Assembly: GCF_013407185.1 (NCBI RefSeq)
Contig: NZ_CP026995.1
Span: forward strand, 1,447,913 to 1,511,912
Origin: Nitrosopumilus ureiphilus
GTDB taxonomy: Archaea > Thermoproteota > Nitrososphaeria > Nitrososphaerales > Nitrosopumilaceae
Direction: 5' to 3'
DNA length: 64,000 bases
The translations under genes and the position numbers were made by a program. Shown here piece after piece: positions 8,329 through 31,338 of the stretch (its first letter is position 1; every line of letters starts with the position of its first letter). The notes below the pieces were generated by a model. It saw only the letters and a program-made list of their open reading frames with translations. It was not told the DNA's origin and did no database searches.

Positions 8329-8391
8329 TTTTTAACAAGTTTCCAAAATAATCAGATATAACTAAGGATTGGATATTTGAATTGATAACTA

Positions 8392-10091: not shown

Positions 10092-10118
10092 AAAACAAAT
10101 AGATAATAAAAAAATCTC

Positions 10119-10241: not shown

Positions 10242-10287
10242 AGGATATTATGTAAATAATATTATAAGTCTATAATAGGGCATTATC

Positions 10288-10689
10288 CTATAACACAAAT
10301 TCAAACAGTTTTCCAGACTCGGAGATTATCTGAACAGTACTTCCAGATCCTGTGACATCTAGCAGAACAATTTTGTTTAATGAAATGACATCAATTGGAT
10401 TCAGACTTTGATCAGTTAAGGTGTATGATGCTGCAATGCCATCAATTAATACCACATCAACACCTATTTCATAAATTCCAACATTCATCAAGTCCAGTGA
10501 CAGAGATCCTGGTTCCTGCTTCATCGATATCAGATGCAGTATCTGGCCGTTTTGTGTCTGCTGTATCTCCATAAATTCTGCAATGCTGACAGAGTTTGAA
10601 GTTATCTCTTCCCAAGATCCAATGATTATCGGTACAATTACTGCAGTCACTAGTCCAAACAACAGCAATGCTGCAATTATCTGGTTCAT
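10288..10689 (-). CDS. Type IV pilin-like / small membrane-anchored protein (133 aa)
   Basis: A single N-terminal hydrophobic helix (IIAALLLFGLVTAVIVPIIIG) begins almost at the first residue and is followed by a beta-rich extracellular domain, the layout of archaeal type IV pilins and of minor conjugative pilins. There is no classic basic prepilin leader, so it may be inserted without processing. It lies 33 bp downstream of the pilin gene at 10723 on the same strand and probably forms one operon with it and the VirB4 gene. Role in a surface filament or mating channel is inferred from this context. Confidence 0.6.
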   Translation of the reverse strand: MNQIIAALLLFGLVTAVIVPIIIGSWEEITSNSVSIAEFMEIQQTQNGQILHLISMKQEPGSLSLDLMNVGIYEIGVDVVLIDGIAASYTLTDQSLNPIDVISLNKIVLLDVTGSGSTVQIISESGKLFEFVL

Positions 10690-10722
10690 ACAGAAAATAT
10701 GTGAATATAAAATAAGGTCACA

Positions 10723-11391
10723 TTATCTTGCAGTTACTACCTGAATGCAACTTGCTTTGGAACCATCTTCTGCAATGATATTAGCATCTACAATGTAGGA
10801 ATTCCCTTTTGTAATGGTTCCTGCAAAGGTTTGGTTTTTCACAAGACTTGTTCCAGGCAAGAGTGTCAAAGAGTTCTCATAAAATCCGTATTTTGCATTC
10901 AAATCATCAGCAAATGTTATTGAGACATCAGTTACGTAGATGTTGCCTGAGTTCTGAAGGTTTGCTATGAAATATGCTTGGAACGCAGACGTTATCTTGT
11001 ACAGTTTGACATTTACCAAATAGCATGCAGTATTTTGGTTTATTGTATCAGTGGAACTAGTCAAAAGGGGCAGAATTATTGCAGATCCTGCAACTGAAAT
11101 TCCAACCAAAATTATTGTGGCAATAAATGTGGAGAATGCTCTTCTCTGTTTTTTTGGTTTTGTAAGGATTGCAGGGCCATTTCTGATACATTTTTTATTT
11201 ACATCAAATAATTTTAGAACATACATTGTCTCTTGATGAAATTCCTTAATTGATGTCAAGTGCAACGTTAATTTGTTGCAAATAAGCTTGTCTCCTGGAC
11301 TCATCTTTTGTATGTTCTCTTGCAATTCTTTTTCAGACAATCCCATATCCTTGCAAAAGAACTGGAAATAGTACTTGTTTTGCAGATTCAT
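10723..11391 (-). CDS. Type IV prepilin with an unusual cytosolic N-terminal extension (222 aa)
   Basis: Residues about 79-108 carry a prepilin signature: the charged stretch KPKKQRRAF followed by STFIATIILVGISVAGSAII, suited to cleavage by an A24 prepilin peptidase such as the one at 25614. Residues 110-222 are a beta-rich secreted domain with two Cys. Residues 1-78 form a charged helical domain not expected in pilins. The ATG overlaps the VirB4 stop (ATGA at 11388-11391), which supports this start and implies translational coupling. It is probably the major subunit or adaptor of a pilus used by the transfer apparatus. Confidence 0.7.
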   Translation of the reverse strand: MNLQNKYYFQFFCKDMGLSEKELQENIQKMSPGDKLICNKLTLHLTSIKEFHQETMYVLKLFDVNKKCIRNGPAILTKPKKQRRAFSTFIATIILVGISVAGSAIILPLLTSSTDTINQNTACYLVNVKLYKITSAFQAYFIANLQNSGNIYVTDVSITFADDLNAKYGFYENSLTLLPGTSLVKNQTFAGTITKGNSYIVDANIIAEDGSKASCIQVVTAR

Positions 11392-13214
11392 TGCTCTGAT
11401 GGGTTTTCCGTTTCAGGTGCAGTGTTGAAATGAATTTCCTTCTCTTCAGGGGTTGCCTCAAACTTTACATGCAGCCTGTGCTTTTTTGTGATAAAGATTC
11501 CATTGCCCACATCAAAAGAGGTTATTTGATCAACCTCATGTAGGGACAATTGTAAGATTTTTCCAGCCTTTGCAGCGGCATCCTCCTCCATCAGCATCAA
11601 CACCTTTGTTTCAATGTTGTCTATGATTCTGCCATACCCTCCTTTCTCGTTGGCAAGGTCTTCTACTTTCTGGCTTACAAAGATGAATGTGACGTTTAGT
11701 TTTCGTCCCATCCTCACTATCATGTCAATGTATTTTTCAGCCCCTTGCATTTTGAAAAGCATCCAACCCTCATCTATTAGCAGAATCTTTTTCTTGGTTG
11801 GCAGGAGTTCCGTAATTCTCTTCCATGCCTTGCTTAATGCCATTAACAAAATCAAGACGGTGTGCTCTTCGGTTCCAGTTCCTTTCATTGATATGATTAT
11901 TTTATCTGACATCTGGGGCTCTCCTTTCATGATTGTGGAAAGTGGTCCCTTTACAAGGTCAACAAGATATCTTTGCGCGTTTTCATCAGATGATTCGTAT
12001 AGTTCAGAAATGTTTTTGATGTTTTGGGCCAAAAGGCTGCGCCATAGCTTTATCACTTCTGGCGGTGCCTTTGTTGCCTGCCCCAAGATATCCACAGCAT
12101 CAAGGGGTTCTAGCATGTTAAATGGATCAAATCCAAACTCTTTACTCTCAGTAATCTGGATTGCATCCAATCCGAGATATGATGCTATTTTGTAATATTC
12201 ACCCATCGGGTCAATTACAAAACAAAAACAATCAGGATATTTTTCAATCAATCTTTTGAGCAAAATTTTCACAGTAAATGATTTTCCTGAACCGCTTTTG
12301 CCAATTATTGCAAAATTATAGTTTGTCCTTTTTGCAGGATCATAAATTACAGGAGCACCTGTATTGACATTTATTCCAAGCACCACACCATTTGGAACCT
12401 CCAGCATGTCTGCTGAAACAAACGCATAAAGAATTGCAGTGCTTCCAATATCCATTGAAAGTCTTGCACCCCATCCATTAATCATGGCAGCCTGCTTTGA
12501 TGGAGTTGATGTGAATCTTCCACCAGCAATACTTGCATTTTTTCTAAAGTCTTTGACAGCTTTTTTCATCTCCCTCATTGTTGGACCTATGATTGTACAG
12601 TTTACGGCAACATGAAATAATGATGTCTGGCTTTTTTGAAGCGCAGTCTTTATTGCATCAACTTTTTGGCATTCCTCAAGAATTTTTTTGGATCTGGTTG
12701 CAAGTTCATAGAGCATCTTGGATTTTGAATCCATTATCTTGATTGCCTTGTCTTGGGTGATTGGTGTGATGTAGATATCAATTCTACTGCATGCAGAAAA
12801 AATTGAATGAATCCAGGCAGAAGGCAGAGATGATGGAACTGAATACAACGTCATGCATTTACCATATGCATCAGGACCTGTCTTGTTTGGAATCCTGAAA
12901 TGTCTTAGATGCTCTTTTGATATCTCATAGGATGCATGTTCCTCATCAATAGAGTATTCAAATTTTAATCTGTCAAAGATGTCATCAAGTGGCTCTTGGG
13001 ATGACATCTGAATCTGAATGATTGGCATGTCAGTTATCACACCCTCAATTGGAACTGGCAGCATCTTTCTTGAGAAAATGATGTGAATCTCCTTCTCAAT
13101 TACACGCAAGATGTCAAAGAATTCCCCTAGTTTTCGGACTTGTTTTTCCTCAGGAAGTGTAATGAAATTGGTCGCAGTTACAGTGTAAAAATATTTGAAT
13201 CTCTTTAAATTCAC
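11388..13214 (-). CDS. virB4: VirB4/TraC-type conjugation ATPase (608 aa)
   Basis: The N-terminal half is the VirB4/CagE domain. The motor domain has Walker A GKSGSGKS at 305-312, a conserved VIDPMGEY, Walker B ILLIDEGW near 477-484 and a sensor-like FVSQKVEDL. It energises assembly of a type IV secretion or conjugation channel at the inner face of the membrane. At 608 residues it is shorter than many bacterial VirB4 proteins but similar in size to archaeal CedB-like ATPases. It is translationally coupled to the pilin gene. A TraG-like ATPase, a VirB6-like protein and a prepilin peptidase lie on the same strand further downstream in the window. Confidence 0.85.
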   Translation of the reverse strand: MNLKRFKYFYTVTATNFITLPEEKQVRKLGEFFDILRVIEKEIHIIFSRKMLPVPIEGVITDMPIIQIQMSSQEPLDDIFDRLKFEYSIDEEHASYEISKEHLRHFRIPNKTGPDAYGKCMTLYSVPSSLPSAWIHSIFSACSRIDIYITPITQDKAIKIMDSKSKMLYELATRSKKILEECQKVDAIKTALQKSQTSLFHVAVNCTIIGPTMREMKKAVKDFRKNASIAGGRFTSTPSKQAAMINGWGARLSMDIGSTAILYAFVSADMLEVPNGVVLGINVNTGAPVIYDPAKRTNYNFAIIGKSGSGKSFTVKILLKRLIEKYPDCFCFVIDPMGEYYKIASYLGLDAIQITESKEFGFDPFNMLEPLDAVDILGQATKAPPEVIKLWRSLLAQNIKNISELYESSDENAQRYLVDLVKGPLSTIMKGEPQMSDKIIISMKGTGTEEHTVLILLMALSKAWKRITELLPTKKKILLIDEGWMLFKMQGAEKYIDMIVRMGRKLNVTFIFVSQKVEDLANEKGGYGRIIDNIETKVLMLMEEDAAAKAGKILQLSLHEVDQITSFDVGNGIFITKKHRLHVKFEATPEEKEIHFNTAPETENPSEQ

Positions 13215-13260
13215 AAAATTAAACTATGGGTTCCTTTTAAAGTCGACAAAATTTACATGT

Positions 13261-13434
13261 GTGTCTGAAGACAAACTCCAAAAATTTATCATTACACGAA
13301 TTGATTCACAAACATTACCAATTGATGTAATTGATCAATATTGTGTGGGAGAATGTACAATCTACATTACAAAAGATGGGGAGTACATAATCCAGGAGCC
13401 TCATGTGAGCGAAGAAGGATTCAATCTATGGTAG
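13261..13434 (+). CDS. Hypothetical small protein (57 aa)
   Basis: The open frame extends back to 13195, but that overlaps the divergent VirB4 gene. A GTG at 13261 sits 22 bp after a TATA-like TTTTAAAG (13235-13242), fitting a leaderless start. The product (VSEDKLQKFIITRIDSQTL...) is soluble and beta-rich with an acidic C-terminus. No family recognised. It is followed after 3 bp by a second small gene and is divergent to virB4. Confidence 0.5.
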   Translation: MSEDKLQKFIITRIDSQTLPIDVIDQYCVGECTIYITKDGEYIIQEPHVSEEGFNLW

Positions 13435-13437
13435 GAC

Positions 13438-13674
13438 ATGATGCAGTATTTGCATTATTCACTTCCTCCAAACATTGAAGATGTTGAAAAAATAGAATTG
13501 GTTACAAGACACATGCAAAATGAAGCAATTGGTTCTGGAAACACATCTGCATGGGAGAAAGAAAAACCCCAGCTTGAATACTATCTGAAAAGGGATTTGG
13601 TCGGATATGAGTTAATTGATGTCTTGATGAATGATGAAATGATAATTTTAGATTCTAAAGATTCTCAATTATAA
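13438..13674 (+). CDS. Hypothetical small acidic protein (78 aa)
   Basis: It starts with two consecutive ATG codons 3 bp after the preceding stop, so the pair forms an operon. The product is helical and acidic (NIEDVEKIELVTRHMQNEAIG, YYLKRDLVGYELIDVLM) with no membrane segment. Function not recognised; its place beside virB4 suggests an element-encoded accessory protein. Confidence 0.5.
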   Translation: MMQYLHYSLPPNIEDVEKIELVTRHMQNEAIGSGNTSAWEKEKPQLEYYLKRDLVGYELIDVLMNDEMIILDSKDSQL

Positions 13675-13690
13675 TTTTATTCGGTTATGT

Positions 13691-13831
13691 TCAGAGAGTT
13701 TTTCGCAATGCTTCATTTAGAGTTTGAGAATAACTACATGATGTTTGCTCTTTTTGGATTGTTTTTGCTTGACGTGTTCTAAGTTTCTTGTCCAGATCAT
13801 CATCAATCATTATTGTTATACGTTTTCTCAT
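13691..13831 (-). CDS. Ribbon-helix-helix miniprotein (46 aa)
   Basis: An ATG at 13829-13831 opens MRKRITIMIDDDLDKKLRTRQAK, then YSQTLNEALRKTL. This is the beta-strand/helix/helix pattern of Arc/CopG repressors, and the strand RKRITIMIDDDL is especially typical. It is short but complete for this fold, and probably an element-borne repressor or antitoxin. A second such gene lies at 14069 and a zinc-finger gene lies between them, all on the reverse strand. Confidence 0.7.
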   Translation of the reverse strand: MRKRITIMIDDDLDKKLRTRQAKTIQKEQTSCSYSQTLNEALRKTL

Positions 13832-13912
13832 GTAATACAGTATGAACATATGGGATATAAAGTAATAGCAAATGTCCCAATTGTGGAATTCATTTCGTTG
13901 TTTTAAAAATTA

Positions 13913-14044
13913 CTACTTGTAGCTAATGACTTCATTTTTGTGGATTGTCTTGTAGTGATGTCTAAGAAAACCTTTTCCCTGCAATGTCTTGTTGCAGATT
14001 TTGCATTTTACCCTGTTTCCCAAAGTATTATTCTCATAAATCAT
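13913..14044 (-). CDS. C2H2 zinc-finger miniprotein (43 aa)
   Basis: The sequence VKCKICNKTLQGKGFLRHHYKTIH contains Cys-x2-Cys, a 12-residue finger loop and His residues at the expected spacing for a C2H2 finger. Single-finger proteins of this size are frequent in archaeal viruses and plasmids and usually bind DNA. Flanked by two ribbon-helix-helix genes on the same strand. Start ATG at 14042-14044; the stop leaves 81 bp to the next gene. Confidence 0.7.
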   Translation of the reverse strand: MIYENNTLGNRVKCKICNKTLQGKGFLRHHYKTIHKNEVISYK

Positions 14045-14068
14045 TAATTATTAGAATTATTCGCTGAT

Positions 14069-14221
14069 CTATTGTTCTGGGTTTTCTTTTGTATCTCTTA
14101 ATTTTCTCATTGCATACTCTATTGCATGAGAATAATTGGCATATTCGCCCTTCTTAATTTCGCCTTCCATCCAGTCAAAAAGCTCGGACATCATGGTAAT
14201 GCTGAGTTTTCGTTTAGGCAT
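14069..14221 (-). CDS. Ribbon-helix-helix / ParD-like miniprotein (50 aa)
   Basis: Begins MPKRKLSITMMSELFDWMEGEI, then KKGEYANYSHAIEYAMRKLRDT. The strand KRKLSITM and the helix YSHAIEYAMRKL match ParD/CopG antitoxins. No cognate ParE-like toxin is visible adjacent, so it may be a stand-alone regulator. It ends 24 bp before the zinc-finger gene, so the two may be co-transcribed. Divergent from the 62-residue gene at 14278. Confidence 0.7.
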   Translation of the reverse strand: MPKRKLSITMMSELFDWMEGEIKKGEYANYSHAIEYAMRKLRDTKENPEQ

Positions 14222-14277
14222 GAATGGTAGTATGAGAAAATATTATTAAGGACTCATGCGATAGATAAGGATAAGTC

Positions 14278-14466
14278 ATGATTTATACTGCTATTAGAAA
14301 ATCTAAGAAGGCAAGCAATGATAATCCATCACGAGATGAACTAATCATCAAGGCACAACTGGAACAATGGGTTTGCGATGTTAAGAAAAAAGCAGAACTA
14401 GAACAAAGACTGAAAAAAGCATTTGAGAATTCAAAGAGTCATGTTTCATCATTGAGTGAAACCTGA
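14278..14466 (+). CDS. Small coiled-coil protein (62 aa)
   Basis: Lys/Glu-rich and predicted almost entirely helical (RDELIIKAQLEQWVCDVKKK, AELEQRLKKAFENSK). A TATA-like AATATTATTAAGG at 14239-14251 sits at the spacing expected for leaderless transcription from the ATG. No family recognised. It ends at the edge of the GC-rich block. Confidence 0.5.
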   Translation: MIYTAIRKSKKASNDNPSRDELIIKAQLEQWVCDVKKKAELEQRLKKAFENSKSHVSSLSET

Positions 14467-14925
14467 CATACTCCACTAGCTAAAGCATCGCGGGTTCTGC
14501 TTTTCATTCGGTTCCGTCCTCATCTGTTGCCATCAGAGCGGGTTTTGCAGAAACCAGCGGTTGCCGAGTTTTATGGCCACAGTCGTCTGCTGCGTTGCCA
14601 TTCTGGGGGTATCAGTGCTCCCTTTGCATACATCTCTTTCTGCATGCAATCGAGATACACCATGTGGCTCAACATGATACGACGACATGTCAAATACCGG
14701 TGTTCTCAACCTCCCTTTGGAAGTTTCAAGAGGTCCAGAGTGTTCAAGTGATTCCCTAAAGACCGAATCGGTGCGACGTAGGGGATCTCCATACCGGACA
14801 TTATTGGCAGTGGTATGGTTTTGATAGATTTAACAATATTGTTGTGCTTTGCTTTGAGTTGTGGTGTGCTCGCTTTCATCCCGACTCTAAAGAGTTAGGG
14901 CTTTCCCGCTCGCATTTGTAAAAAT
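14467..14925 (-). mobile_element. GC-rich structured block; possible TnpB-type insertion sequence remnant or RNA
   Basis: About 460 bp near 50% GC in a one-third GC background, with no intact gene. Read on the reverse strand it has a hairpin with a TTTA loop (ACTC-TTTA-GAGT, about 14888-14899) at one end and a GC-TTTA-GC element (about 14480-14487) preceding GTGGAGTATGTCAG at the other. These resemble ends of IS200/IS605-type elements. Degenerate reverse frames between them (for example RMATQQTTVAIKLGNRWFLQ and NEKQNPRCFS) look like remains of a coding 3' end. An unrecognised structured RNA is an equally open alternative. Confidence 0.35.
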
Positions 14926-15130
14926 CAAATCTCACATTATTGTAGAATTATCAAAACATTATAACAAAAATTGTATTATATATTGATCCATGTTTTCCGT
15001 AGGATGCATCAGTAATGTTTTATGTGGTCAAAAATGAAAAAAATCTCCCAATATTCATGATCTCATATGATTATCGATTTTGAAAATCATCTCTAGTCTA
15101 AATTTAGATAACCTGTCTAGTTGTTTTGTT

Positions 15131-15571
15131 ATGGGTGATAATTTTAGTTTTGATTCTATTTTGGTTCCATACAATGCTACCTCTGGTGCAAAACGAGGAT
15201 TAATGGCTGCAATGGATCTTGCAGAAAAAATTGATGGACAAATCACATTAATCACATGTATTGAATCTTCGTCACTTGCATCTTTTTTTAGAAAAAACAA
15301 AAAAGATGAATTTGAAAAAGAGAGAAAAATTATCCAAGATGAGTTAGAAAATATTGAATATGACACAAAAAAACTAAAAAAACCGCTAAAACATGTTATT
15401 CTGAAATCTTCTTTTGCTCCAGATACAATTGCTGAATATGCAGAAGAAAATAAGATAGGATTAGTTGTTATAGGACAGACCAAAATATTGCCTACTGAAG
15501 AGAAATATCATGAAAGAATGGCACAGTATCTCTTACGAGGTTTAAGTTGTCCTATTTTAATTGTTAAATAA
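15131..15571 (+). CDS. Universal stress protein (UspA family, 146 aa)
   Basis: A single Usp domain: FDSILVPYNATSGAKRGLMAAMDLAEKI at the N-terminus and KIGLVVIGQTK...QYLLRGLSCPILIVK at the C-terminus. The usual G-2x-G-9x-G(S/T) ATP motif is weak (VVIGQTKILPTEEKYHERMAQ), so ATP binding is doubtful. The frame could begin at 15080, but the ATG at 15131 begins just before the conserved domain. It stands alone between the GC-rich block and a secreted-protein gene. Confidence 0.8.
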   Translation: MGDNFSFDSILVPYNATSGAKRGLMAAMDLAEKIDGQITLITCIESSSLASFFRKNKKDEFEKERKIIQDELENIEYDTKKLKKPLKHVILKSSFAPDTIAEYAEENKIGLVVIGQTKILPTEEKYHERMAQYLLRGLSCPILIVK

Positions 15572-15604
15572 AATATTCTTTACGTGATAAGCAAAACGAT
15601 AAAG

Positions 15605-16600
15605 TTAGTTTTCAAACACCTCATCAATTGAACGTACAAAAATCTCATGGATGATGTCAGATTCAATATCGTCAAGTGACCTACGATGTTCAATCTCTGC
15701 CCATCCTGCATCATCAACAGTAATGGAACCAGTAGAATTTAATTTCACAAACTCATTTGGAATACAAATAAGATCATCATAGTTTGTCAAACTCTCATCA
15801 AAATCTGTTGGGATATCATCATCGATCAAGGCAGGATTATTTGAAATAACTGGGTTTTCCAAATCTAGTTGTATTTCCAGTTTGGTGTTTTCTAAGGATC
15901 CAAAATCATATTCCAAAAGTTCAAATGAAAACAGGAAATCAGGTTCTGGATATATCACCGTAGAACTATACACTTGTCCCCACAATGGAAATGGGAATTG
16001 TTTCGATATGGAGTAGGTGGACCTTTCCTTGATGTCGTATCCCACTGCAAACACTTCAAATGGTTCCTGACCAATTTCAGTAACATCCTCATTTAGAACC
16101 ATCATGTCTGAATCTACTGTAAGATAAGATGGGACAGTGCCCCAAGACTGGCCAACTTGTAATATTTTTGGAAAATTTGAGTTTGCAAATTTCCCAATAT
16201 TGAACAAAGTATTTTCTACAGATTGCGCAAATTCCAAATTAGAATTGTCAGTAGTAATTTCAAACGTGTCTGCATCTATTTGAAAAATACCTGGCTTTGT
16301 AAAGTCATCATAGGAAACAAATGATTGAGCAATCCATGTCTTGCCGTTTGGTCCGTCAAAGATATCGTAAAAATCAAGTTGGATGGCATAACATTTTTCT
16401 GCAAACATTGATTTTGTAAAAGTCTTGTCATCGCAAACTCTATAAACAAATGAATCTCCAGGATTCAGGTTGGAACCCACATACCATTCCTTTTGTTTTT
16501 GATAAACAATGATGTCATCAATTCCAACTGCAAAAGAATTTGAAATTGAGAAAAACAACAAAGAGACAAGAATTATGGCAGGATGCTTTTTTTCCAACAT
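15605..16600 (-). CDS. Secreted protein of unknown function (331 aa)
   Basis: A signal peptide (HPAIILVSLLFFSISNSFA) precedes a large acidic beta-rich domain with four Cys, including VYRVCDDKTF and FAEKCYAIQ, spaced to form a disulphide. There is no C-terminal anchor. No catalytic motif recognised. Convergent with the Usp gene, 33 bp apart. It may be part of the island or a resident gene. Confidence 0.7.
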   Translation of the reverse strand: MLEKKHPAIILVSLLFFSISNSFAVGIDDIIVYQKQKEWYVGSNLNPGDSFVYRVCDDKTFTKSMFAEKCYAIQLDFYDIFDGPNGKTWIAQSFVSYDDFTKPGIFQIDADTFEITTDNSNLEFAQSVENTLFNIGKFANSNFPKILQVGQSWGTVPSYLTVDSDMMVLNEDVTEIGQEPFEVFAVGYDIKERSTYSISKQFPFPLWGQVYSSTVIYPEPDFLFSFELLEYDFGSLENTKLEIQLDLENPVISNNPALIDDDIPTDFDESLTNYDDLICIPNEFVKLNSTGSITVDDAGWAEIEHRRSLDDIESDIIHEIFVRSIDEVFEN

Positions 16601-16639
16601 GTAGCAAATTTGAGTTCAATAAAAGATGGAATGATGTCA

Positions 16640-16876
16640 TCAAATAGATGTTATCGTGGAGGCAGTGGTTTTTTGAAAAATATTTACAATTACACTTACT
16701 CGTTTCACCAGATATTGAGTCAAGAAAACAAATTTTGAAACGGTAAGAACTTTTTGCAAGACTTTCTGCGTTGCAGAATCATCTTGAAAATATGTTTTCA
16801 ACAATTTGGCCCATATCTCACATTTTTTAACAGATAATCCTGTGATCAAAATTCTGATCATAGGATGAATCACCAT
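16640..16876 (-). CDS. Possible small hypothetical protein (78 aa)
   Basis: The reverse frame from the ATG at 16874-16876 reads MVIHPMIRILITGLSVKKCE and continues helical (IWAKLLKTYFQDDSATQKVLQKV). The extension upstream to 16972 looks non-coding. Neighbouring frames are mostly closed. No family or ribosome-binding signal supports it, so it is tentative. Confidence 0.25.
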   Translation of the reverse strand: MVIHPMIRILITGLSVKKCEIWAKLLKTYFQDDSATQKVLQKVLTVSKFVFLTQYLVKRVSVIVNIFQKTTASTITSI

Positions 16877-17066
16877 AAAGTGACCATGAGTTTTGATTTT
16901 AGGTATGGATGCAACACTTGAAGCATTACAGAGCATGCAAGGTGTCATGGGCCTTGAGACATGAAAGAGCAAGGACTCTTAAATTCCGTCTCAAATTTCA
17001 AACATAATCCAGGTTGCCGGATTCACACTAATTTTGTGGCTTAAAACTGAGCCAGAATTATCAAGT

Positions 17067-17426: not shown

Positions 17427-17431
17427 AAAAA

Positions 17432-20400
17432 TCATTTCATAGGTTTGTAGACTAGTGCTGTAACTAACTTTTTTTCTTTATCACTTAGTTTGGCATCATA
17501 GATTCTTTGAAGTTTCGGATTTCTAGACCATATGTGGCAACGCTTGAAACCAAGATCGGGCCATTTTTTCATGTTTAGCAACACATGTTCAGGATGACTC
17601 TCAACCTCGCTGTATGATTCAATTTCAACTGAGATTGGAGTGTCAGACTCATAGTGATATGCTACGAGGTCAGTGCGTAGCTTGCCTTTTTTCACCTTTT
17701 GATTTGCTACAGCTACAAAATGTTTTTTCTTTAGATACATCTCTGCAATATCAGAGGCCAATAGTTCAATGTCGTTGGCAGTTCCAATATCCTCAAAGGA
17801 GTAATCAAAATATGTAGAGTAAGCTTGCTTTGAAATTGTGTAGAGTGTTTTTCTTGAATCAGTGCAGATGACAAGCTTCTTTCTCATCAACGAACGAAGT
17901 ATCTTCTTTACTTGATCACGTGCAGTTGTTCCATCAAGATATTGCTCTGTAATGGACTTGAGGTTCAGTGCATCGTGTCTTAGAATCAACAGGACATACC
18001 ACTCAGGCTTTTCTCGAAACTCTACTGACAGATTCCTATACCACCTAATATTTTGAGAGAGTGCCTTGTTCAAAAATGAGCCCTCAACTATACCATATCC
18101 ATATTTTTGCCTCTGATCTTCGATGAACTCATCTCTTTGTTTATCATCCATGTTTAGTTTTGGCGGGTAATGCAACCAAAATTGTGCAGGTGCTGGCTGC
18201 TCTATGCCAGGTTCTGCGCGCATCTTAATAGTCCAGTGAAAGTCTTCTTGGGATGCCAATTGTTGCTGAATTTCTTTTGAGAACTGAGGGTCCCATATCT
18301 GAGCGATTCTTCTAGCATCACGACCTGAGACTTTTCCTGCAAACTGGGTTCCACAGTTACCTGTAATCTCTTCTAATAATTTGTCATTGATTTGTGCTGT
18401 TGTCTGATGTGCAAGAATCAATCCAAGACGATAAGACCTAGCATGAGACAGAATTAGCGGCAATACCTGCAAGTTTTTTACAATCTGAAATTCATCCAAA
18501 GCTAATACTACTTGGGTTCGGTCTTTTTCATCAGGTACTTTTGCAGCTCTTTCTTGAATCGTAAACCACAATTTTATGATAAATGCCTGTATTGCCAATG
18601 GCTGTACATGGTGAGGTATGTTCAATGCAGAGACCCTTACAACGGTATAATGGCCAGGAGAAATCAAGTCTGTAAAATTCACAGTTCCGTGAGGCACACA
18701 AAAAATCTGCTTTAGTATCGGATCTGTCGCAAATTGTTCAACCCTGTTAAGTAATGGTGTAAATGAATCTCCCCTCATAGAAGCTATTGATTCAAGGGCC
18801 TGCTTCATTTCAGAATCTGGTTTTCCAATCGAGTGAAATATCTCTTGTAGTATATCCTCACCGTCTTCTTGTATTCGAGTTACAATGTTGTGGATATCAA
18901 GGAATGTAGGCGCATCATTTCCAGTATAAAGATAATACAGTAGGGCCCGAAATATTCTCTCCATCTGAACAAAGACTTGGTTTTGTCCGTACCATTCCTT
19001 TACAATTTCCATAAAATAACCCACATATCTTGATACTACTTGCTCTCTTTCTTGAGGAATGTGTAAAGGCAACTCCAATGGATTGATTGAAAATTTAGTA
19101 AGACTAGGATCAAGAAAATGTACATGTTTTGCATCAATGGATTCTTTTTGGCACTGCTGGAAAAACTTGAATGAGTCATCGCCTTTAGGATCCAGATAGA
19201 TAAAGGAATTCGGAAATGTACCATCAAGGTTCAGCATTTCAAGATGCTTTGAGATGAGTCTAATCAGAGAGGTCTTTCCAGTGCCTGTTGCACCTACGGC
19301 ATACATGTGTCTTGAAAAATCATCAGTGGAAACTACTGAAGCATGTGCATCACTTGATTTCACTAGTTGGCCAAAAATATCCCCTAGTTTTCTGCCCAAT
19401 GCTGTAGCATCGCCTCTTTTGAATAATCCTAGTGAAATTCCCATCTTTCCAGACCATTGTTGCGGCACCATTACACTTCTCGTGGTCTTTATGTTTGGAA
19501 TTGTAGGAGTTGGTAAGTGAATGAATAGCGGAATCTCTGACGGATTCAAAATCAAAAAGGGCAGTGGTTTTCTGTCACGGTAACCAAAAATTCCCTTCTC
19601 AAAGTACACATCAAGAGCATTGTAGATGCAAGGGGCAGGGTCAGGCAATAGTCTTGATGGAAAAATATCAATTCTTTGTTTTTTTGTTTTGTTTTTTCCA
19701 ATCTTGATATGTTTTTGTTTTTTTGGATTTGATGTGAAAAAATCACCGTGTCTGTATTTGTATTTCGTAAGACGTTCATGGTTTGAGATGATGCTCTCAA
19801 CTGGCATTGATTCTATTTCATCAAAATTCAAGTCCAATTCATGATCACTTTGAATCAATCCCCTAATACTCATCAGTGCATGAGAACCCTGCATCTTTGT
19901 TGTTGAATGTTTTAGCAATGTATTGTAGTTGTTGTAAAAATCGCTTTGAAGTTCTGGGTGATTGCCAGGTACCTTGTATGGATTGAATATCAAATCCTTT
20001 GTACTGACATACTTTTTGCTTGAGATTTCTGCAAATTTTTTATTTAATCGTGCAACATGCCTTAAGAAAAATTTGGTAAAGTTGTGGTATTTGAAAGTGA
20101 ATTGAATCCATGCAAATTTTGAAATCTGGATTGTGTTTGAGATTTGAGTGATTATTTCGTGTGCCCTGGCTTGATCAAAGACTGCAGCATAGTGACCGTG
20201 ATATGTCCCAATGTCAAAAATTTGGTAGTTCTCATTTTTATCAAACCAGTTAGGAGTGACAACTCCAAGATCTGCAAAACCAGCATTAGGATACATGTTG
20301 GAAAATGATTGCTTGAAACTATCAAGATCATATTTTTCTGCAACCAGAACCAAGCTGAGTTCTCTTTTTTGTCCATCCCACCACAATTCAAAGGAGCGAA

Positions 20401-20575
20401 TTCCAGTACCAACAATCCCACCAGCTGCAATTATTGCAGTTTTCTCATTAATGGAGACAGGCACAGTTACCAGAGAACATCGGAGTTTATTTGCGGTATC
20501 CAGGAATTCTTTTGTCTGGTCCAGCTGGCCGTTTTGTTTTTTGGAATTGCCTAGTCGCCATTTATCTGAACCCAT
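17432..20575 (-). CDS. VirD4/TraG-like ATPase with C-terminal winged helix and possible nuclease domain (1047 aa)
   Basis: Domains in order: a non-membrane N-terminal region (1-370); a RecA-like motor with Walker A GATGTGKTS (428-436), IYLDPKGDD (459-467) and Walker B VVLALDEFQI (689-698); a winged helix (about 858-917, SITEQYLDGTTARDQVKKIL); and a domain at about 938-1030 with LRTDLVAYH and PISVEIESYSE, where Asp969, Glu984 and Glu986 suit a PD-(D/E)XK-like core. It resembles coupling-type conjugation ATPases that feed DNA to a VirB4 channel. No N-terminal membrane helices are evident, unlike bacterial VirD4. The nuclease-like tail might process DNA in the absence of a visible relaxase; that is inference. 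Confidence 0.75.
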   Translation of the reverse strand: MGSDKWRLGNSKKQNGQLDQTKEFLDTANKLRCSLVTVPVSINEKTAIIAAGGIVGTGIRSFELWWDGQKRELSLVLVAEKYDLDSFKQSFSNMYPNAGFADLGVVTPNWFDKNENYQIFDIGTYHGHYAAVFDQARAHEIITQISNTIQISKFAWIQFTFKYHNFTKFFLRHVARLNKKFAEISSKKYVSTKDLIFNPYKVPGNHPELQSDFYNNYNTLLKHSTTKMQGSHALMSIRGLIQSDHELDLNFDEIESMPVESIISNHERLTKYKYRHGDFFTSNPKKQKHIKIGKNKTKKQRIDIFPSRLLPDPAPCIYNALDVYFEKGIFGYRDRKPLPFLILNPSEIPLFIHLPTPTIPNIKTTRSVMVPQQWSGKMGISLGLFKRGDATALGRKLGDIFGQLVKSSDAHASVVSTDDFSRHMYAVGATGTGKTSLIRLISKHLEMLNLDGTFPNSFIYLDPKGDDSFKFFQQCQKESIDAKHVHFLDPSLTKFSINPLELPLHIPQEREQVVSRYVGYFMEIVKEWYGQNQVFVQMERIFRALLYYLYTGNDAPTFLDIHNIVTRIQEDGEDILQEIFHSIGKPDSEMKQALESIASMRGDSFTPLLNRVEQFATDPILKQIFCVPHGTVNFTDLISPGHYTVVRVSALNIPHHVQPLAIQAFIIKLWFTIQERAAKVPDEKDRTQVVLALDEFQIVKNLQVLPLILSHARSYRLGLILAHQTTAQINDKLLEEITGNCGTQFAGKVSGRDARRIAQIWDPQFSKEIQQQLASQEDFHWTIKMRAEPGIEQPAPAQFWLHYPPKLNMDDKQRDEFIEDQRQKYGYGIVEGSFLNKALSQNIRWYRNLSVEFREKPEWYVLLILRHDALNLKSITEQYLDGTTARDQVKKILRSLMRKKLVICTDSRKTLYTISKQAYSTYFDYSFEDIGTANDIELLASDIAEMYLKKKHFVAVANQKVKKGKLRTDLVAYHYESDTPISVEIESYSEVESHPEHVLLNMKKWPDLGFKRCHIWSRNPKLQRIYDAKLSDKEKKLVTALVYKPMK

Positions 20576-20723
20576 GCTGAAAAATCACAAACAAATTTGG
20601 GATTTGATTTAAGAGGAACTACATGGTATGTAATTGCACATACTGTTGACAGATATATCAGAGAACAAGAAAAGTAGACGATTCATCTGTCGGACAAATA
20701 CGGGAGGTCATTTTGCATCAAAA

Positions 20724-20731
20724 TTATAAAT
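20724..20731 (+). promoter_or_regulatory. TATA box of the hicBA locus
   Basis: TTATAAAT sits 24 bp (centre) upstream of ATG 20752, the spacing expected for a leaderless archaeal mRNA beginning at hicB. This decides the start in favour of 20752 over the upstream codon at 20713. Confidence 0.5.
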
Positions 20732-20751
20732 ACACAAAAGAGACACAGAAA

Positions 20752-20970
20752 ATGAATAACATGGAAACACGAAAATTCACCATACAAGTAATCAAATCAT
20801 CAGAGGGAGGATACACAGGACGATGCCTTGAATTGCCTGCAGCAATTAGTGAAGGAGACACATTAGAGGAATTAGAAGCAAACATGAAAGAAGTAGTTTC
20901 ACTAATCCTAGAATCCATTGAGGAAAAAACCAAACCAGATCAAAAAATCATCATTGAGATTACAAATTGA
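20752..20970 (+). CDS. hicB: HicB-family antitoxin (72 aa)
   Basis: After MNNMETRKFTIQVIKSSEGG the protein shows the HicB partial RNase H-like fold: GYTGRCLELPAAISEGDTLEELEANMKEVVSLILESI. This is the short HicB form without an added DNA-binding domain. It normally binds and neutralises HicA, an mRNA interferase. The stop overlaps the TTG start of hicA. The antitoxin frame is intact while its toxin is frameshifted. ATG 20761 is an alternative start. Confidence 0.85.
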   Translation: MNNMETRKFTIQVIKSSEGGYTGRCLELPAAISEGDTLEELEANMKEVVSLILESIEEKTKPDQKIIIEITN

Positions 20971-21181
20971 GTCTAAAAAACCACAATTGGCTAGATGTCA
21001 TAAAGGCATTAAGCAAATTCGGTATTCTGTAAACAGGCAAAGAGGAAGTCACATAATATTACAAAACAAAAATGGGAACATAGTTCCAGTACCAAGACAT
21101 TCTCCAATCAAAGAATCAACACTAAAACTCATACTAGAACAAGCTGAAATCTCAAAAGATGATTTTCTAAAATACATCTAA
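20967..21181 (+). pseudogene. hicA: hicA toxin, inactivated by a one-base frameshift
   Basis: From TTG 20967 (overlapping hicB as TTGA) the frame reads SLKNHNWLDVIKALSKFGIL then TAA at 21030-21032. The next frame continues NRQRGSHIILQNKNGNIVPVP and ends DDFLKYI, carrying the HicA catalytic QRGSH histidine and the conserved VPVPRHSPIKESTLKLIL. One added base near 21029 would restore a normal toxin of about 71 residues. Loss of the toxin with retention of the antitoxin is selectively plausible, but a sequencing indel is possible. Confidence 0.75.
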
Positions 21182-21214
21182 TTTGTCCAATAATGAAAGA
21201 CCATTTTGTGTAAA

Positions 21215-21349
21215 ATGCCAAACAATGAATCAAGCAGAGAGATTGCAAATACCTGTAGAAAATGCCACGTTTATATGGCAATTTTCTCAAATAGGTTATT
21301 TCATAATTACCCAATCTTAAACGGGATCGACTTTCCTGTTTGTGCATGA
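21215..21349 (+). CDS. Tentative small Cys-containing ORF (44 aa)
   Basis: Reads MPNNESSREIANTCRKCHVY..., with a Cys-x2-Cys-His. The overlapping +1 frame (TTG at about 21184) reads NNERPFCVKCQTMNQAERL with another Cys-x2-Cys. Joined by a frameshift they would make one zinc-ribbon miniprotein, so this may be a decayed gene. There is no other support. Confidence 0.25.
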   Translation: MPNNESSREIANTCRKCHVYMAIFSNRLFHNYPILNGIDFPVCA

Positions 21350-21363
21350 ACATAAAGGAGAAT

Positions 21364-21468
21364 ATGAATAATATCTTACAAGGTAAATTTGAAATTTTAG
21401 ATACAAATCCACACATCAAAAACAGTCAAACTCTGGGGCACATTATATTTGAGGGCATGATACCATGA
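21364..21468 (+). CDS. Short leader-like ORF with strong ribosome-binding site (34 aa)
   Basis: A good Shine-Dalgarno match (AAAGGAG, 21354-21360) precedes ATG 21364, and the stop overlaps the ATG of the next gene (ATGA at 21465-21468). The peptide (MNNILQGKFEILDTNPHIKN...) has no recognised family. The overlap suggests it couples translation of the 353-residue protein downstream. Confidence 0.5.
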   Translation: MNNILQGKFEILDTNPHIKNSQTLGHIIFEGMIP

Positions 21469-22526
21469 CGCTTTTGACAAGATCTGGGGAAAAACAAGAA
21501 CAAGCAGTAATTGTTGAATCCCCTGCTGGAAGAGGGGTTTTGTATGTTACAACAATTGGATTAATTTTAGAGATTCACGGAAGAGGAATCTATATGGACC
21601 TAAGACATGAATTTATCACATCTGTAATTAACACAAACAGAAACAAAGTTGTCGTATCCTGGATAGAAAACAAGAAGGATAGTTTTTCATTTGAGTTTAG
21701 AACAGACAAGGCAGGCGAGTTTGCAAAAGCAGTATCTGAAAAACACAATTATTCTGCAAATTTTTCTGATGATCATGAAGGTCATCCCGTAGACTTGACT
21801 GGAGATGTAAAGGAAATGATAAGGCAATGTAGATTAGAGCCATACAATCACAAACTAGAACCATTAGAGCAAAAACTCTCTGAGATACAATCACAGCTTG
21901 ACAATCTGAGTGGAAGAGAGTATGTTGAAATCGGAGAGCAAAAAGTTGCGCTTGATTATCAAAAGGAGCCATTGATAAAAGAGATTGATGCAATAAAACA
22001 ACAGCGAAAGACCATTGAAGAGATGCCAATCATTAGATCAAGTGTAATTCCAAAAGAAGTTGACTCTGTAAATGTATGGAATGATTGCTATTACGATACA
22101 TCAAGAAAGGCATACATTACTTTCAATAAAAGATTTGAGCAAATGAAAGAAGCTAGAACAAGAGACATTCAAGTTCAATTTGACAAAGAAATGGGAAAAG
22201 AATCAGGAATCATTATTGAGGAATCTAAAATTACAATCAAATACGGAATTTCTGCAATAATTGCTAAAGATCAAGATGGAAATCCAGTATGGCATCTTCT
22301 ACCCATAATGACTGATGAAATGCTAACTGATGAAATTGTTACAAACAGGTTATGGTCAAAATCTGATGATGAATCTGTGTTATATGAAACAGTTTCAGAA
22401 GCTTGGTTAAGTATGGGAACAAAAGGTTTGATGTTGACTGAAAGAGAAAGAGAAGTGGGTGTAAAAAGAGGAACATATGCAGATGTTCCAATGGAACAAC
22501 TGAAATTAATTAATCATAGAAAATAA
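21465..22526 (+). CDS. Hypothetical protein with N-terminal beta domain and central coiled coil (353 aa)
   Basis: Residues 1-95 form a strand-rich domain (AVIVESPAGRGVLYVTTIGLILEIHGRGIYM, VVVSWIENKKDSFSFEFRTDKAGEFAKAV) reminiscent of PH-like/GRAM folds. Residues about 115-190 are a charged coiled coil (LEPLEQKLSEIQSQLDNL, EIDAIKQQRKTIEEM). The rest is alpha/beta. No catalytic motif or membrane segment. Translationally coupled to the short ORF upstream and convergent with the HTH gene at 22569. Function unknown; its location suggests an element-encoded structural or adaptor protein. Confidence 0.65.
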   Translation: MTLLTRSGEKQEQAVIVESPAGRGVLYVTTIGLILEIHGRGIYMDLRHEFITSVINTNRNKVVVSWIENKKDSFSFEFRTDKAGEFAKAVSEKHNYSANFSDDHEGHPVDLTGDVKEMIRQCRLEPYNHKLEPLEQKLSEIQSQLDNLSGREYVEIGEQKVALDYQKEPLIKEIDAIKQQRKTIEEMPIIRSSVIPKEVDSVNVWNDCYYDTSRKAYITFNKRFEQMKEARTRDIQVQFDKEMGKESGIIIEESKITIKYGISAIIAKDQDGNPVWHLLPIMTDEMLTDEIVTNRLWSKSDDESVLYETVSEAWLSMGTKGLMLTEREREVGVKRGTYADVPMEQLKLINHRK

Positions 22527-22568
22527 CAATAAAATTAATTATTTTTAATCAGTAATATCCTGTATTTG

Positions 22569-23063
22569 TTATATCAATTCAGGATAAAGAGACATTGCAC
22601 CTTTTGCAGTGATTGCCCCCATATCTGACAAGTAGTATTTTTTTCCTTTTTTGATTACATGTTCTGCTGTAACCAATTCATCTAAGATCGGACTAGAATT
22701 CATTTGAATTGCTGATGTATTTTTTGTTGCACCATTTTGTAACAAATATACGAGTATCTCTTCATTCCGGTCAGGCGTAGGATAGTAAGACGTACGGATT
22801 AACATTTTCTGTATATGCATAGGCATTGAGGTTATTCCACTTTTTGATTTCATCTGAATATGGGTTGCGTGTCCCAAGTGTGTTATGTTGATCTTTTTCG
22901 ATTCTAATTGTTTTTGGCATGCCTCTATCAAATTGAGTGCTTTTTGTACAGTTCTGAAATTTAATTCTGTCTTTTTACTTATCTTGTTTAATGTGTATGC
23001 CTCCCCATTTTGAATGGCTTTCATTATTTGTAGAGTTGCACTAACAAGATCTGTTCTTGACAT
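22569..23063 (-). CDS. Winged-helix transcriptional regulator (164 aa)
   Basis: The N-terminal half has a helix-turn-helix (ATLQIMKAIQNGEAYTLNKI, SKKTELNFRTVQKALNLIEA). A second winged-helix-like unit follows near the C-terminus (NEEILVYLLQNGATKNTSAIQ, VTAEHVIKKGKKYYLSDMGA). It is divergent from the gene at 23117 across two copies of a 14-bp palindrome, which it probably binds to control both genes. Start ATG at 23061-23063. Confidence 0.7.
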   Translation of the reverse strand: MSRTDLVSATLQIMKAIQNGEAYTLNKISKKTELNFRTVQKALNLIEACQKQLESKKINITHLGHATHIQMKSKSGITSMPMHIQKMLIRTSYYPTPDRNEEILVYLLQNGATKNTSAIQMNSSPILDELVTAEHVIKKGKKYYLSDMGAITAKGAMSLYPELI

Positions 23064-23065
23064 TA

Positions 23066-23116
23066 TGTATAATTATACAATATTGTTATATAATACTTAC
23101 TGTATAATTATACAGT
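23066..23116. promoter_or_regulatory. Twin palindromic operators in a divergent promoter
   Basis: TGTATAATTATACA occurs at 23066-23079 and again at 23101-23114; the second copy extends to an 18-bp perfect palindrome, 23099-23116. The two start positions are 35 bp apart. One abuts the ATG of each divergent gene, a layout that would let one dimeric regulator block both. Confidence 0.7.
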
Positions 23117-23419
23117 ATGGATGACTATGAGATCGCAATAATATTGCAGGCCTACAACAAAGGGATAATCGGAATGAAAAACTATGTTGCTATTGAAAAG
23201 TTTTCAAAAATGATCAACTGGCAAAAAATTTCAACAGTATACAGAATAAAGAAAGGATTCAAATCTGTTGCCCAAAAACTTGTGAAACGTAAACTGCTTT
23301 CTGATGATGGAAAAAGTATGGCAGTATTATACCTTGATAAAATTGGCGCATCATATATTATTGGAATGAATGAGAATGAACCTAAACGTATCTCCAAAAT
23401 TTTATCTAAGATTGAGTAA
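23117..23419 (+). CDS. Small basic protein, possible winged-helix (100 aa)
   Basis: Basic and helical: DDYEIAIILQAYNKGIIGMK, KISTVYRIKKGFKSVAQKLVKRKLLSDDG, then a hydrophobic strand (MAVLYLDKIGASYIIGM). The order helix-helix-wing suits a small wHTH protein but is not diagnostic. The ATG follows the operator directly, so translation is probably leaderless and the gene is repressed by the divergent regulator. Confidence 0.55.
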   Translation: MDDYEIAIILQAYNKGIIGMKNYVAIEKFSKMINWQKISTVYRIKKGFKSVAQKLVKRKLLSDDGKSMAVLYLDKIGASYIIGMNENEPKRISKILSKIE

Positions 23420-23846
23420 AAACGAAACAAAATAATTAGATTTTAAAAAATACAACATTATAAAAAATTGGACTTGACAATTAATTCTTTCTGATTAATT
23501 TTGATATGTCTTTCAAAAATAAAATTTTTGATTTTTATTTTAAATGAAAGATCTTTGATTGTTGAATAGATTCTGTCAAGATAGGGGAAAAACCTCAATT
23601 CAAAATACTAGTAATAAGTAAATCAAATATGTCAAATGAAGATATAAAAAAACATCAAAAGAATTTTCATTCAGTGTTGTTACATATTCTATTCAATTGG
23701 AAGATGTTATGACTACAATAATTTGTCTGGAATTATCAAATGGTTGGTTGAAAACAGAATTTTTTGTTAATTATTATGATAAGGTCAGTTTTGATAGTAA
23801 AATCAATTTGGCTTAACTAATCATTAAAAACAACCATCCTACAATC
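23420..23846 (+). other. Intergenic region with two tiny overlapping ORFs
   Basis: Frames 23629-23712 (27 aa, MSNEDIKKHQKNFHS...) and 23709-23816 (35 aa, MTTIICLELSNGWLKTEFF...) overlap as ATGA. They could be a coupled pair or one small gene broken by a frameshift. Nothing recognisable is seen in the rest of this AT-rich gap, which separates the regulator pair from the VirB6-like gene. Confidence 0.3.
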
Positions 23847-25562
23847 TTAAAATATATCTGTATTTTTTCCACTAGAACCCGATTTAACATCATTAAGCAT
23901 ACGACTTGCAGACTGTGGGTGTTGTTTTATTTGCTCTGCCAGTTTAACAGTAATCTGTTCTTGAACCTTTGGAGACATGTGATCAAATCCATCAATGCTT
24001 TGCTGTTGATGTGCAAGCAATTCTTGCTGTGTTTGAGGTAGATTCAACAAAGAAGGAGTTTCCATACTATGAATCATCCCACCGGGGTTTGAAACCATTA
24101 GTGCCGAGACACATGATGAACCAAATGATGAAGATACAATCTCGGGATTTACTAGAGTCTCCATGGATATCATGTTGTGATTGACATTTCTCACGACAGA
24201 GTTTGCCATTCCCATTTGCCCAATTTCAAATGCCTTTGTCTGCCCTGCACTCATGACTGAGCGTGCAGTGTACCTTGACATCTCAGGATTGCCAGCAATA
24301 CTGCCTGCAGAATGTATTGCACCGGCTGCAGTTCCAGCAGCAGCACCAGTCAATGCGCCTTTTGCTAATGTCTTGAATTTCTCAAATCCCCCCATTCCTG
24401 ATGTTGCTTGTCCAAGACCCAATGATGAGACTGAATTGCCAGCTATTGCGCCTATTCCGGCACCTGCCGCATGACCCATCACGTTTACTCCAGCTCCCTC
24501 CATTGCAGATGATGCAGAGGCCATTCCCTGTGCCATTCCCTGTATCCCAGTTCCGCTAATAATTGCAGCACTTTGCATAGCAGTCTGCATGGCCTGTCCC
24601 ACATGTGTTGCCATCTGGCCCAGCATGGGTGACAAAAAGATAGGAAAAAATACTGCCAGGAATCCTACTGCCAAAGTCGAAAACCAGTCCTGCATTGCAG
24701 GAAGATTAGTCGAATCAAGATATGCAAGTCCCGCAGTTAGCACCATGGCAGAAAATATTGGCGCAATGGAGAGACCTATCAAATTGTCAGTAAGAAGAGT
24801 TGTTGCCTTTTTGAAAAATGGCACCAAGGACAAAACAAGGATTAACGGCAATGCAATTATCAGAACAGATGTCAGCACAAGACGAACGGCAGATAATACA
24901 AACATCATTGCAGTCATCATCATTACAGCAATTCCCCTAAACAATGCCAAGAAGACATTTTTGAGCAATGCCTGTCCTGCGGTTCCAGGGTCTGCAAGTG
25001 CTGCGCCCCATGCACTGACATCAAATGCATCAGGTGGGAGTACAGATCCCATGCCTTGCCACAACGTCTGGGATCTGGTGGAAGGATCACTTGAATCAAA
25101 GGGATCCATCAAAAACAATGATGTATTCTCAATTGAGACAGCATACAGATCCCACACATAAGGAAATATCATAAAGAAAGGTAGGAAGACAATTACTTTG
25201 GTAATGATTTTAAATGCAGTTCCTGGCTGCATCAGATTGAAATCTTCGGCAAACCAGGCAATCCCTGCAACCATGCCAAGAATTATCAGCATTATTGTTG
25301 CAACCAATACCAGAAGATAGTAAAGTTGCAGACGCTCATTTGGGGAACCATCATGGGTATCAGCCATTTCTGTGTCAGAAGAATAGTCAAAGAAAGTAGG
25401 CATCTCAGAGAGCAGTTCGGGTGCTAAAGGACCACCAACCTCAACAAAAGTCTGTGAAATAGCAATGACTGCACCAAACATTATCATGCCAATTCCAAGC
25501 ATAAGGGGAATGGTAAATACAAAGCCGTGTCTCTTGTGGAATGAAATTCCGTATGCCAACAA
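23847..25562 (-). CDS. VirB6/TrbL-like polytopic membrane protein of the transfer channel (571 aa)
   Basis: The N-terminal 330 residues contain about six or seven membrane segments (for example YLLVLVATIMLIILGMVAGIAWF, GIAVMMMTAMMFVLSAVRLVLTSVLIIALPLILVLS, LAVGFLAVFFPIFLSPML). A long Gly/Ala/Met-rich soluble tail follows (GTGIQGMAQGMASASSAMEG onwards). This architecture is that of VirB6/TrbL and of archaeal CedA-like proteins, the membrane core through which DNA passes. Family assignment rests on topology and composition. It lies 51 bp downstream of the prepilin peptidase gene on the same strand, so the two probably share an operon. Confidence 0.7.
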   Translation of the reverse strand: MLAYGISFHKRHGFVFTIPLMLGIGMIMFGAVIAISQTFVEVGGPLAPELLSEMPTFFDYSSDTEMADTHDGSPNERLQLYYLLVLVATIMLIILGMVAGIAWFAEDFNLMQPGTAFKIITKVIVFLPFFMIFPYVWDLYAVSIENTSLFLMDPFDSSDPSTRSQTLWQGMGSVLPPDAFDVSAWGAALADPGTAGQALLKNVFLALFRGIAVMMMTAMMFVLSAVRLVLTSVLIIALPLILVLSLVPFFKKATTLLTDNLIGLSIAPIFSAMVLTAGLAYLDSTNLPAMQDWFSTLAVGFLAVFFPIFLSPMLGQMATHVGQAMQTAMQSAAIISGTGIQGMAQGMASASSAMEGAGVNVMGHAAGAGIGAIAGNSVSSLGLGQATSGMGGFEKFKTLAKGALTGAAAGTAAGAIHSAGSIAGNPEMSRYTARSVMSAGQTKAFEIGQMGMANSVVRNVNHNMISMETLVNPEIVSSSFGSSCVSALMVSNPGGMIHSMETPSLLNLPQTQQELLAHQQQSIDGFDHMSPKVQEQITVKLAEQIKQHPQSASRMLNDVKSGSSGKNTDIF

Positions 25563-25613
25563 GAAGAAATTTTGAGTTTCTATTAAAGGAGAACCAAAAA
25601 ATAAAAAATTTGA

Positions 25614-26258
25614 TCACAGGATTGCAAGAACTAGCAAAACACACACTGCAAGCATATATGGCAACAAAGGGACACCACACTCCACAAAGACACCATCTTT
25701 TGTAAATTCAGATTTTGGGTTCTTAATTCCTAGACAAAATTTCTTTTTTCCGTCAATGAATTGTTCTGCACATATTGAAAATTTTTCTCTGTCTCTTTTT
25801 TTATGAATCATAAGAAAAGCAAGTAATTTTCGGATAATTGATTCATCAAATGCAAAAAATGGACTGCGTCTCATAGCAATTCCGTCTTTGGTGTTAAGAA
25901 CTACATTGTAAGAAACTGTCGATATTCCTGCAATAACTGCACTTCCTGCAAGGAGTACAATTGGAACCATTATAAATCCGCCCAGAGTAGGCAGCAATAC
26001 CCCAATACAGACAAATGCAAGAATGTCTGCCTTGCCAATTGGAAAAAATTTCCACATCAAAGATGCAACAACCAGCGTGATAATGATTGTCAATATATCG
26101 TATGAGAAATGTTCCTTCCAATCAAAAAAATAAATTCCGATTCCTGCAATTCCAAAAACTAGCCACCAATAATCTGATACCTCTCTTTGTTTGATATCAA
26201 AATATGACACAATTCCAAGCAGAATTAACAACAAGACAATTCTAACTGTTTCAAACAC
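25614..26258 (-). CDS. A24-family prepilin peptidase (PibD/FlaK-like, 214 aa)
   Basis: A membrane aspartic protease that removes leader peptides from prepilins at the cytosolic face. The first catalytic Asp is Asp21 in the loop after helix 1 (SYFDIKQREVSDYWW); the second is Asp78 in GKADILAF, the GxxD form used by archaeal enzymes. Five to six membrane segments are visible, with an inserted charged loop at about 125-190. It is the first gene of the operon containing the VirB6-like protein. The pilin at 10723 has a matching processing site. Confidence 0.85.
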   Translation of the reverse strand: MFETVRIVLLLILLGIVSYFDIKQREVSDYWWLVFGIAGIGIYFFDWKEHFSYDILTIIITLVVASLMWKFFPIGKADILAFVCIGVLLPTLGGFIMVPIVLLAGSAVIAGISTVSYNVVLNTKDGIAMRRSPFFAFDESIIRKLLAFLMIHKKRDREKFSICAEQFIDGKKKFCLGIKNPKSEFTKDGVFVECGVPLLPYMLAVCVLLVLAIL

Positions 26259-26390
26259 GGATTCAAAATTTGAGATAAATAAAAATGGTTTAATCTACGA
26301 TGTTTGTCATTTTGTTTACCAAAACAAATTCATTTCATGCCTGATTTCACCATCACATCAAATAACCATATACAATCTTGGCTGTCATAG

Positions 26391-31334: not shown

Positions 31335-31338
31335 AATA

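Follow-up and report, generated by a model that had tools for sequence, protein, structure and literature searches.

Thaumarchaeal integrative and conjugative elements (ICEs), which Krupovic et al. (2019; PMC6563490) described as a class (e.g. NCAV2-E1/E2 and NitEve-E6), encode VirB4 and VirD4 ATPases, VirB6, a prepilin peptidase, pilins and a TFIIB next to a ParB-like gene, in shuffled order and with no recognisable relaxase. VirB4 and VirD4 homologues are also present on the plasmids of Sulfolobus (pNOB8, pKEF9, pING1 and pM164) and Thermococcus (pT33-3). A late-2025 review (PMC12857230) states that no relaxase has been found by sequence similarity for archaeal conjugative elements, and how these elements start DNA transfer without one is an open question. 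We analysed a 64,000-nt stretch of the Nitrosopumilus ureiphilus genome (the window; G000:1447913-1511912, part of a single-contig 2.17-Mb genome), which carries an island with a gene set of this kind. The locus is an ordinary member of the known class, and its new part is a nuclease-like domain at the C-terminus of the TraG/VirD4 coupling protein.

TraG of the island shares 44–57% identity with its relatives. Its last ~230 residues, comprising a winged helix and the domain in question, were modelled together by AlphaFold2 (AF2) with a predicted local distance difference test score (pLDDT) of 84 and a predicted template modelling score (pTM) of 0.80. In this model, the domain has the alpha-beta3-alpha-beta topology, i.e. 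the core order of the PD-(D/E)xK fold; D969 is placed at the second strand, and the third strand carries E984-x-E986, matching the D and ExK positions of that fold. A MmcB-like viral nuclease was among the Foldseek matches in a viral library (TMt 0.49, E 1.8e-3). Several observations weigh against the assignment: the canonical lysine is replaced by glutamate (ExE), the fold search of the PDB was dominated by the winged helix, sequence comparison with solved nucleases gave no significant match, and a motif match was not found in the VirD4 of one genome (G045). The absent lysine and the lack of a significant match to solved nucleases would be expected if the domain were catalytically dead, or not a nuclease at all, and served for substrate docking. 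However, BamHI is competent with an ExE, having glutamate in place of the lysine, and the three acidic residues do not vary among thaumarchaeal, Sulfolobus and Thermococcus proteins that belong to two archaeal phyla and share as little as 24% identity, which is how an active site would behave. We consider a docking role quite improbable. On the evidence of the model and the conserved residues, the C-terminal domain of TraG is likely to be a PD-(D/E)xK nuclease, both its fold class and its activity being predicted.

The domain is not confined to this locus. It was detected in 23 of 300 genomes of the class, where the D..E[IV]E signature is kept in 26 of the 27 extracted domains, the exception being a fragment. 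In a search of the phylum, it was detected in 16 of 398 genomes. A profile built from thaumarchaeal proteins only matched the VirD4 of pNOB8, pKEF9 and the Thermococcus 33-3 plasmid (4.5e-11), and the VirD4 of pING1 also has a C-terminal winged helix and PD...ExE domain. When the pNOB8 domain was used in tblastn, 17 plasmid records were obtained, all archaeal and including named conjugative plasmids, from Sulfolobus, Saccharolobus, Acidianus and Thermococcus nautili 33-3. The plasmid of the last host is 103,230 bp long, and from the strain name and this size we take it to be pT33-3. Every locus of the phylum search that is long enough has an ATPase match ahead of the domain, except for a membrane-anchored variant. 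In L144 (427-1854; genome G155) and L146 (1474-2922; genome G017), predicted N-terminal membrane segments and a coiled coil are followed by the winged helix and PD...ExE, without ATPase. No earlier description of the domain was found in the open-access literature, and we found no mention of it in the available portion of PMC6563490; subscription papers, e.g. the 2023 paper on pT33-3, may hold one.

MOBC relaxases (CloDF13 MobC, pAD1 TraX; PF13814), which are related to restriction endonucleases, likewise have a winged helix and then PD...ExE in their sequences. MOBC is a separate protein whose gene lies directly beside the coupling-protein gene, whereas the TraG domain is part of the coupling protein itself. 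The MOBC gene directly follows the coupling-protein gene in a plasmid of the CloDF13 type and in three out of four further records (the mob region of CloDF13 itself looked frameshifted, and other MobC records were used instead). The TraG domain thus resembles the MOBC relaxases, and the archaeal protein would be their fused version. Against a common origin, the domain gave no match to the PF13814/MOBC profile, and hhalign against MOBC paired the same D and ExE, yet with a probability of only ~2%. As this profile comparison is not significant, homology to MOBC is not claimed, although the signature is shared. We put forward as a tentative proposal that archaeal conjugative VirD4 proteins, in ammonia oxidisers as well as on the plasmids of Sulfolobus and Thermococcus, carry a fused MOBC-like relaxase made of a winged helix and a PD-(D/E)xK domain. 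Pfam relaxase profiles had no match among the island open reading frames (ORFs) scanned. The term 'relaxase-less', used in a preliminary description of the locus, agrees with what has been published on such elements; it holds for the known relaxase families only and has to be qualified by the nuclease-like domain fused to the coupling protein.

By analogy with these relaxases, it is quite possible, if just short of probable, that the TraG domain makes the transfer-initiating cut at the origin of transfer. In such a system, VirB4 would power assembly, VirB6 would line the membrane channel, and the A24 peptidase would process type IV pilin-like subunits into a putative mating filament or adhesin. 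A VirD4/TraG hexamer would, by homology, pump the element DNA into the channel. The TraG winged helix would recognise the transfer start in place of a separate relaxase, and the PD-(D/E)xK-like domain would nick or cut it, so that cutting and pumping would reside in one protein. The conjugative plasmids of Sulfolobus and Thermococcus would make use of this arrangement too. We moderately favour this explanation of the locus as a whole, namely an ICE of the thaumarchaeal class whose fused TraG domain makes the transfer cut.

Another role of the nuclease has to be considered. Transfer of the tRNA-associated Thermus TdtA ICE (PMC5365140) requires a restriction enzyme as well as a HerA-like ATPase and a NurA-like nuclease, which shows that a classical relaxase is not indispensable to such systems. 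Unlike the island, this ICE has a separate nuclease and a HerA-like ATPase and, as far as the account consulted goes, no VirB4/VirB6 system. The island could be an ordinary ICE whose TraG nuclease domain trims DNA ends or aids double-stranded DNA transport in a HerA–NurA-like manner and does not act as an initiator at the origin. The HerA–NurA pairing, with NurA needed in Thermus transjugation (PMC5365140), is in line with this, as are the double-stranded DNA transfer suggested for archaeal plasmids in PMC6563490 and the proposal of HerA–NurA as the maker of single-stranded DNA for Ced/Ted. However, the TraG domain comes after a winged helix of the sequence-reading type, as in the MOBC relaxases, and trimming appears to us somewhat unlikely.

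Table 1. Features of the island and its borders (positions in the window)
Feature	Position	Strand	Remarks
TraG/VirD4 coupling protein, 1047 aa	17432..20575	-	Pfam TraG-D_C 1.4e-7, TrwB_AAD 9e-6
TraG ATPase domain	18320..19372	-	about residues 402-752; Pfam
TraG winged helix	17834..18010	-	about residues 856-914; profile AdcR 3e-5; Foldseek MarR-family regulators
TraG PD-(D/E)xK-like domain	17450..17776	-	about residues 934-1042; D969, E984, E986
VirB4 ATPase	11388..13214	-	Pfam TraG P-loop 1.1e-14; PDB VirB4 4ag5 5e-36
VirB6/TrbL-like membrane protein, 571 aa	23847..25562	-	AF2 from 17-sequence alignment; Foldseek
A24 prepilin peptidase	25614..26258	-	Pfam Peptidase_A24 5.8e-6, 27.1 vs cut-off 26.5 bits
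Minor-pilin-like protein, 133 aa	10288..10689	-	hydrophobic helix at the N-terminus; alignment of 10 members; VirB4 lies nearby in about 15 loci
222-aa protein	10723..11391	-	~84-aa N-terminal extension and class III-type pilin; KKQRRAFSTFIATIILV motif
Island (putative ICE)	7943..37949		~30 kb; at least 10 relatives align to 7.91-7.94 kb, then from 37.95 kb
Native flank gene, 97 aa	7645..7938		
Native flank gene, cupredoxin	37989..38603		
Type II restriction-modification cargo	28588..32595	-/+	Vsr-like nuclease (-), double C5 methyltransferase (+), restriction-enzyme-like 418-aa protein (+); Pfam, PADLOC
TFIIB-like (246 aa), ParB-like (366 aa), helix-turn-helix (HTH)-like (202 aa) operon	33397..35847	-	weak Pfam TFIIB zinc ribbon
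tRNA-Ile(GAT), second full copy	32731..32805	+	identical to chromosomal copy at G000:1898533
Tyrosine integrase remnant	32894..33205	-	in-frame stop; adjoins extra tRNA-Ile
Two small conserved proteins, 79 and 78 aa	13195..13674	+	divergent from virB4; near virB4 in 10-11 loci
331-aa predicted secreted protein	15605..16600	-	recurs as homologues in 13 VirB4 loci, of which two are one and the same contig
353-aa protein	21465..22526	+	homologues adjoin VirB6 in several loci

The limits of the island are apparent from its site. The gap between citrate synthase and uvrC is 31 kb here and ~1.5 kb in relatives, and DNA comparison with at least 10 relatives showed ~0.6 kb in place of the island. Because this site is empty in relatives, and because VirB4, VirD4, VirB6, A24, the pilins and TFIIB-ParB match the published ICE gene set, the sequence data make the island very probably a thaumarchaeal ICE. 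The TFIIB homologue lies just upstream of the ParB-like gene (35847-34007, reverse strand), the ParB assignment being based on gene context and on how the sequence looks, and the pair recurs beside VirB4/TraG in other genomes. The gene order is (TFIIB-)ParB-HTH-A24-TraG in three relatives' loci (L107-L109; VirB6 and the 353-aa gene adjoin in L108 and L109) and TFIIB-ParB-HTH-A24-VirB4-pilin in a fourth (L090). These genes recur in the window, where the restriction-modification set, the extra tRNA-Ile and the integrase remnant sit between HTH and A24; since it shares the TFIIB-ParB-HTH-A24 set, the element extends to at least 35.85 kb. The island differs from the described ICEs in its broken integrase, the lack of detected attachment (att) repeats, its citrate synthase–uvrC site and the full extra tRNA-Ile inside it; a FlaI/PilT or TadC gene was also not recognised in the scanned island ORFs. 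The Sulfolobus and Thermococcus plasmids, unlike the island, are free or integrating plasmids.

All the six reverse-strand genes of the preliminary description are present, at about the positions given there. They form three reverse-strand blocks with forward genes between them, and not a single operon. A VirB4 profile from 10 relatives matched the solved VirB4 well ahead of HerA entries. The 571-aa protein had no match in the Pfam scan; its AF2 model is modest (pLDDT 62), and the top five PDB matches were all R388 TrwI/VirB6 chains (prob 0.96–1.00, E 0.03–0.25), which agrees with its proposed VirB6/TrbL nature. In pNOB8 and pKEF9, a VirB6 homologue was not detected by profile search. The identities given for VirB4, TraG and the A24 peptidase also held, the last just above the cut-off. 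As to the two pilins, the 222-aa protein has a class III-type KKQRRA|F and hydrophobic stretch with no start codon close by, behind its extension; in Nitrosotalea-type relatives the ~84-aa part and the pilin are in different frames, directly after virB4. The 133-aa protein is without a charged leader here, and a relative has the prepilin leader MKKRKAVG|E. Over 61 genomes, VirB4, VirB6 and TraG co-occur (Fisher 3e-9 for VirB4–VirB6, 2e-5 for VirB4–TraG and 8e-6 for the third test, genomes being taken as independent), and VirB6 is present in 9/9 VirB4-positive genomes. Weak VirB4 hits in G047, G050, G052, G059 and G060 are likely HerA and were excluded from these counts. Viral contigs gave one weak VirB4 match.

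The preliminary description had viewed the module as a relative of the Ced/Ted systems, either conjugative or for chromosomal DNA exchange. Ced/Ted importers do share VirB4- and VirB6-like parts with the island, and a host system of this type would account for such parts without a recognised relaxase. Published descriptions set them apart as host-encoded systems that import DNA and have VirB2-like pilins; the pilin candidates here have a type IV look and come with an A24 peptidase. Of the 61 genomes, 9 have the genes, which lie on islands that vary and are accompanied by VirD4, TFIIB-ParB and restriction-modification cargo. Because this distribution is patchy and island-borne, a host system for chromosomal exchange is refuted as far as we can judge, i.e. 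it is highly improbable. Identity with Ced/Ted was rejected because the locus is a mobile island whose site is empty in relatives and which has VirD4 and TFIIB-ParB, besides its integrase remnant and restriction-modification set. What stands of the earlier proposal is a DNA-transfer module that has VirB4, VirB6, VirD4 and pilin parts and lacks a recognisable relaxase.

Whether the element still moves is less certain. Its integrase is broken, and att or flanking direct repeats were not found at the island ends; for these reasons, mobility is doubtful, and the element is possibly unable to excise on its own and may be immobile alone. A described ICE, ICE-2 of N. cavascurensis, is also without integrase, and so the membership in the class is kept, for a probably immobilised element. 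The integrase remnant, the undetected att repeats, and the tRNA copy and the cargo that the element contains would also fit a decayed island, in which the transfer genes of a fossil ICE have survived but no longer function. However, the transfer ORFs are all intact, the TraG motifs are conserved, and an intact integrase related to the remnant sits at 2.03 Mb; we regard the fossil explanation as unlikely and retain that of a thaumarchaeal ICE. The remnant has 86% identity over 78 aa to an intact integrase elsewhere in the same genome (L024).

The tRNA-Ile(GAT) is single-copy in most relatives. The possibility that the whole island had attached at this tRNA was considered and rejected: the element lies on both sides of it, and the tRNA is an extra copy. 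A second element is seen near tRNA-Arg (L178; G000:C1:2016000-2035999), with an intact integrase related to the remnant; its Vsr is 90% identical to that of the island, with which it also has two small genes in common. The segment 14842-14916 has 85% identity to a spot ~2 kb from the chromosomal tRNA-Ile and is possibly an insertion-sequence remnant.

Among the remaining genes, the 331-aa protein may be a surface component of the transfer system, or an adhesin, that has so far gone unrecognised. A HicB/HicA toxin-antitoxin-like pair lies at 20713-21181, between TraG and the VirB6 block, and a 16-bp direct repeat array at 10118-10241, just downstream of the pilin genes.

The interest of these observations lies in the reach of the domain and less in the locus. 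Deletion of traG blocks the transfer of pM164 in S. islandicus, and the accessible text of that report discusses the ATPase motifs only. The nuclease-like domain sits on the one transfer protein already known to be essential in Sulfolobus and offers specific residues to mutate in a mating assay that exists. Archaeal conjugation has long lacked an identified DNA-cutting enzyme, and the TraG domain is a candidate for it that can be tested. If the proposal is true, archaeal conjugative elements do have an initiator, fused to VirD4.

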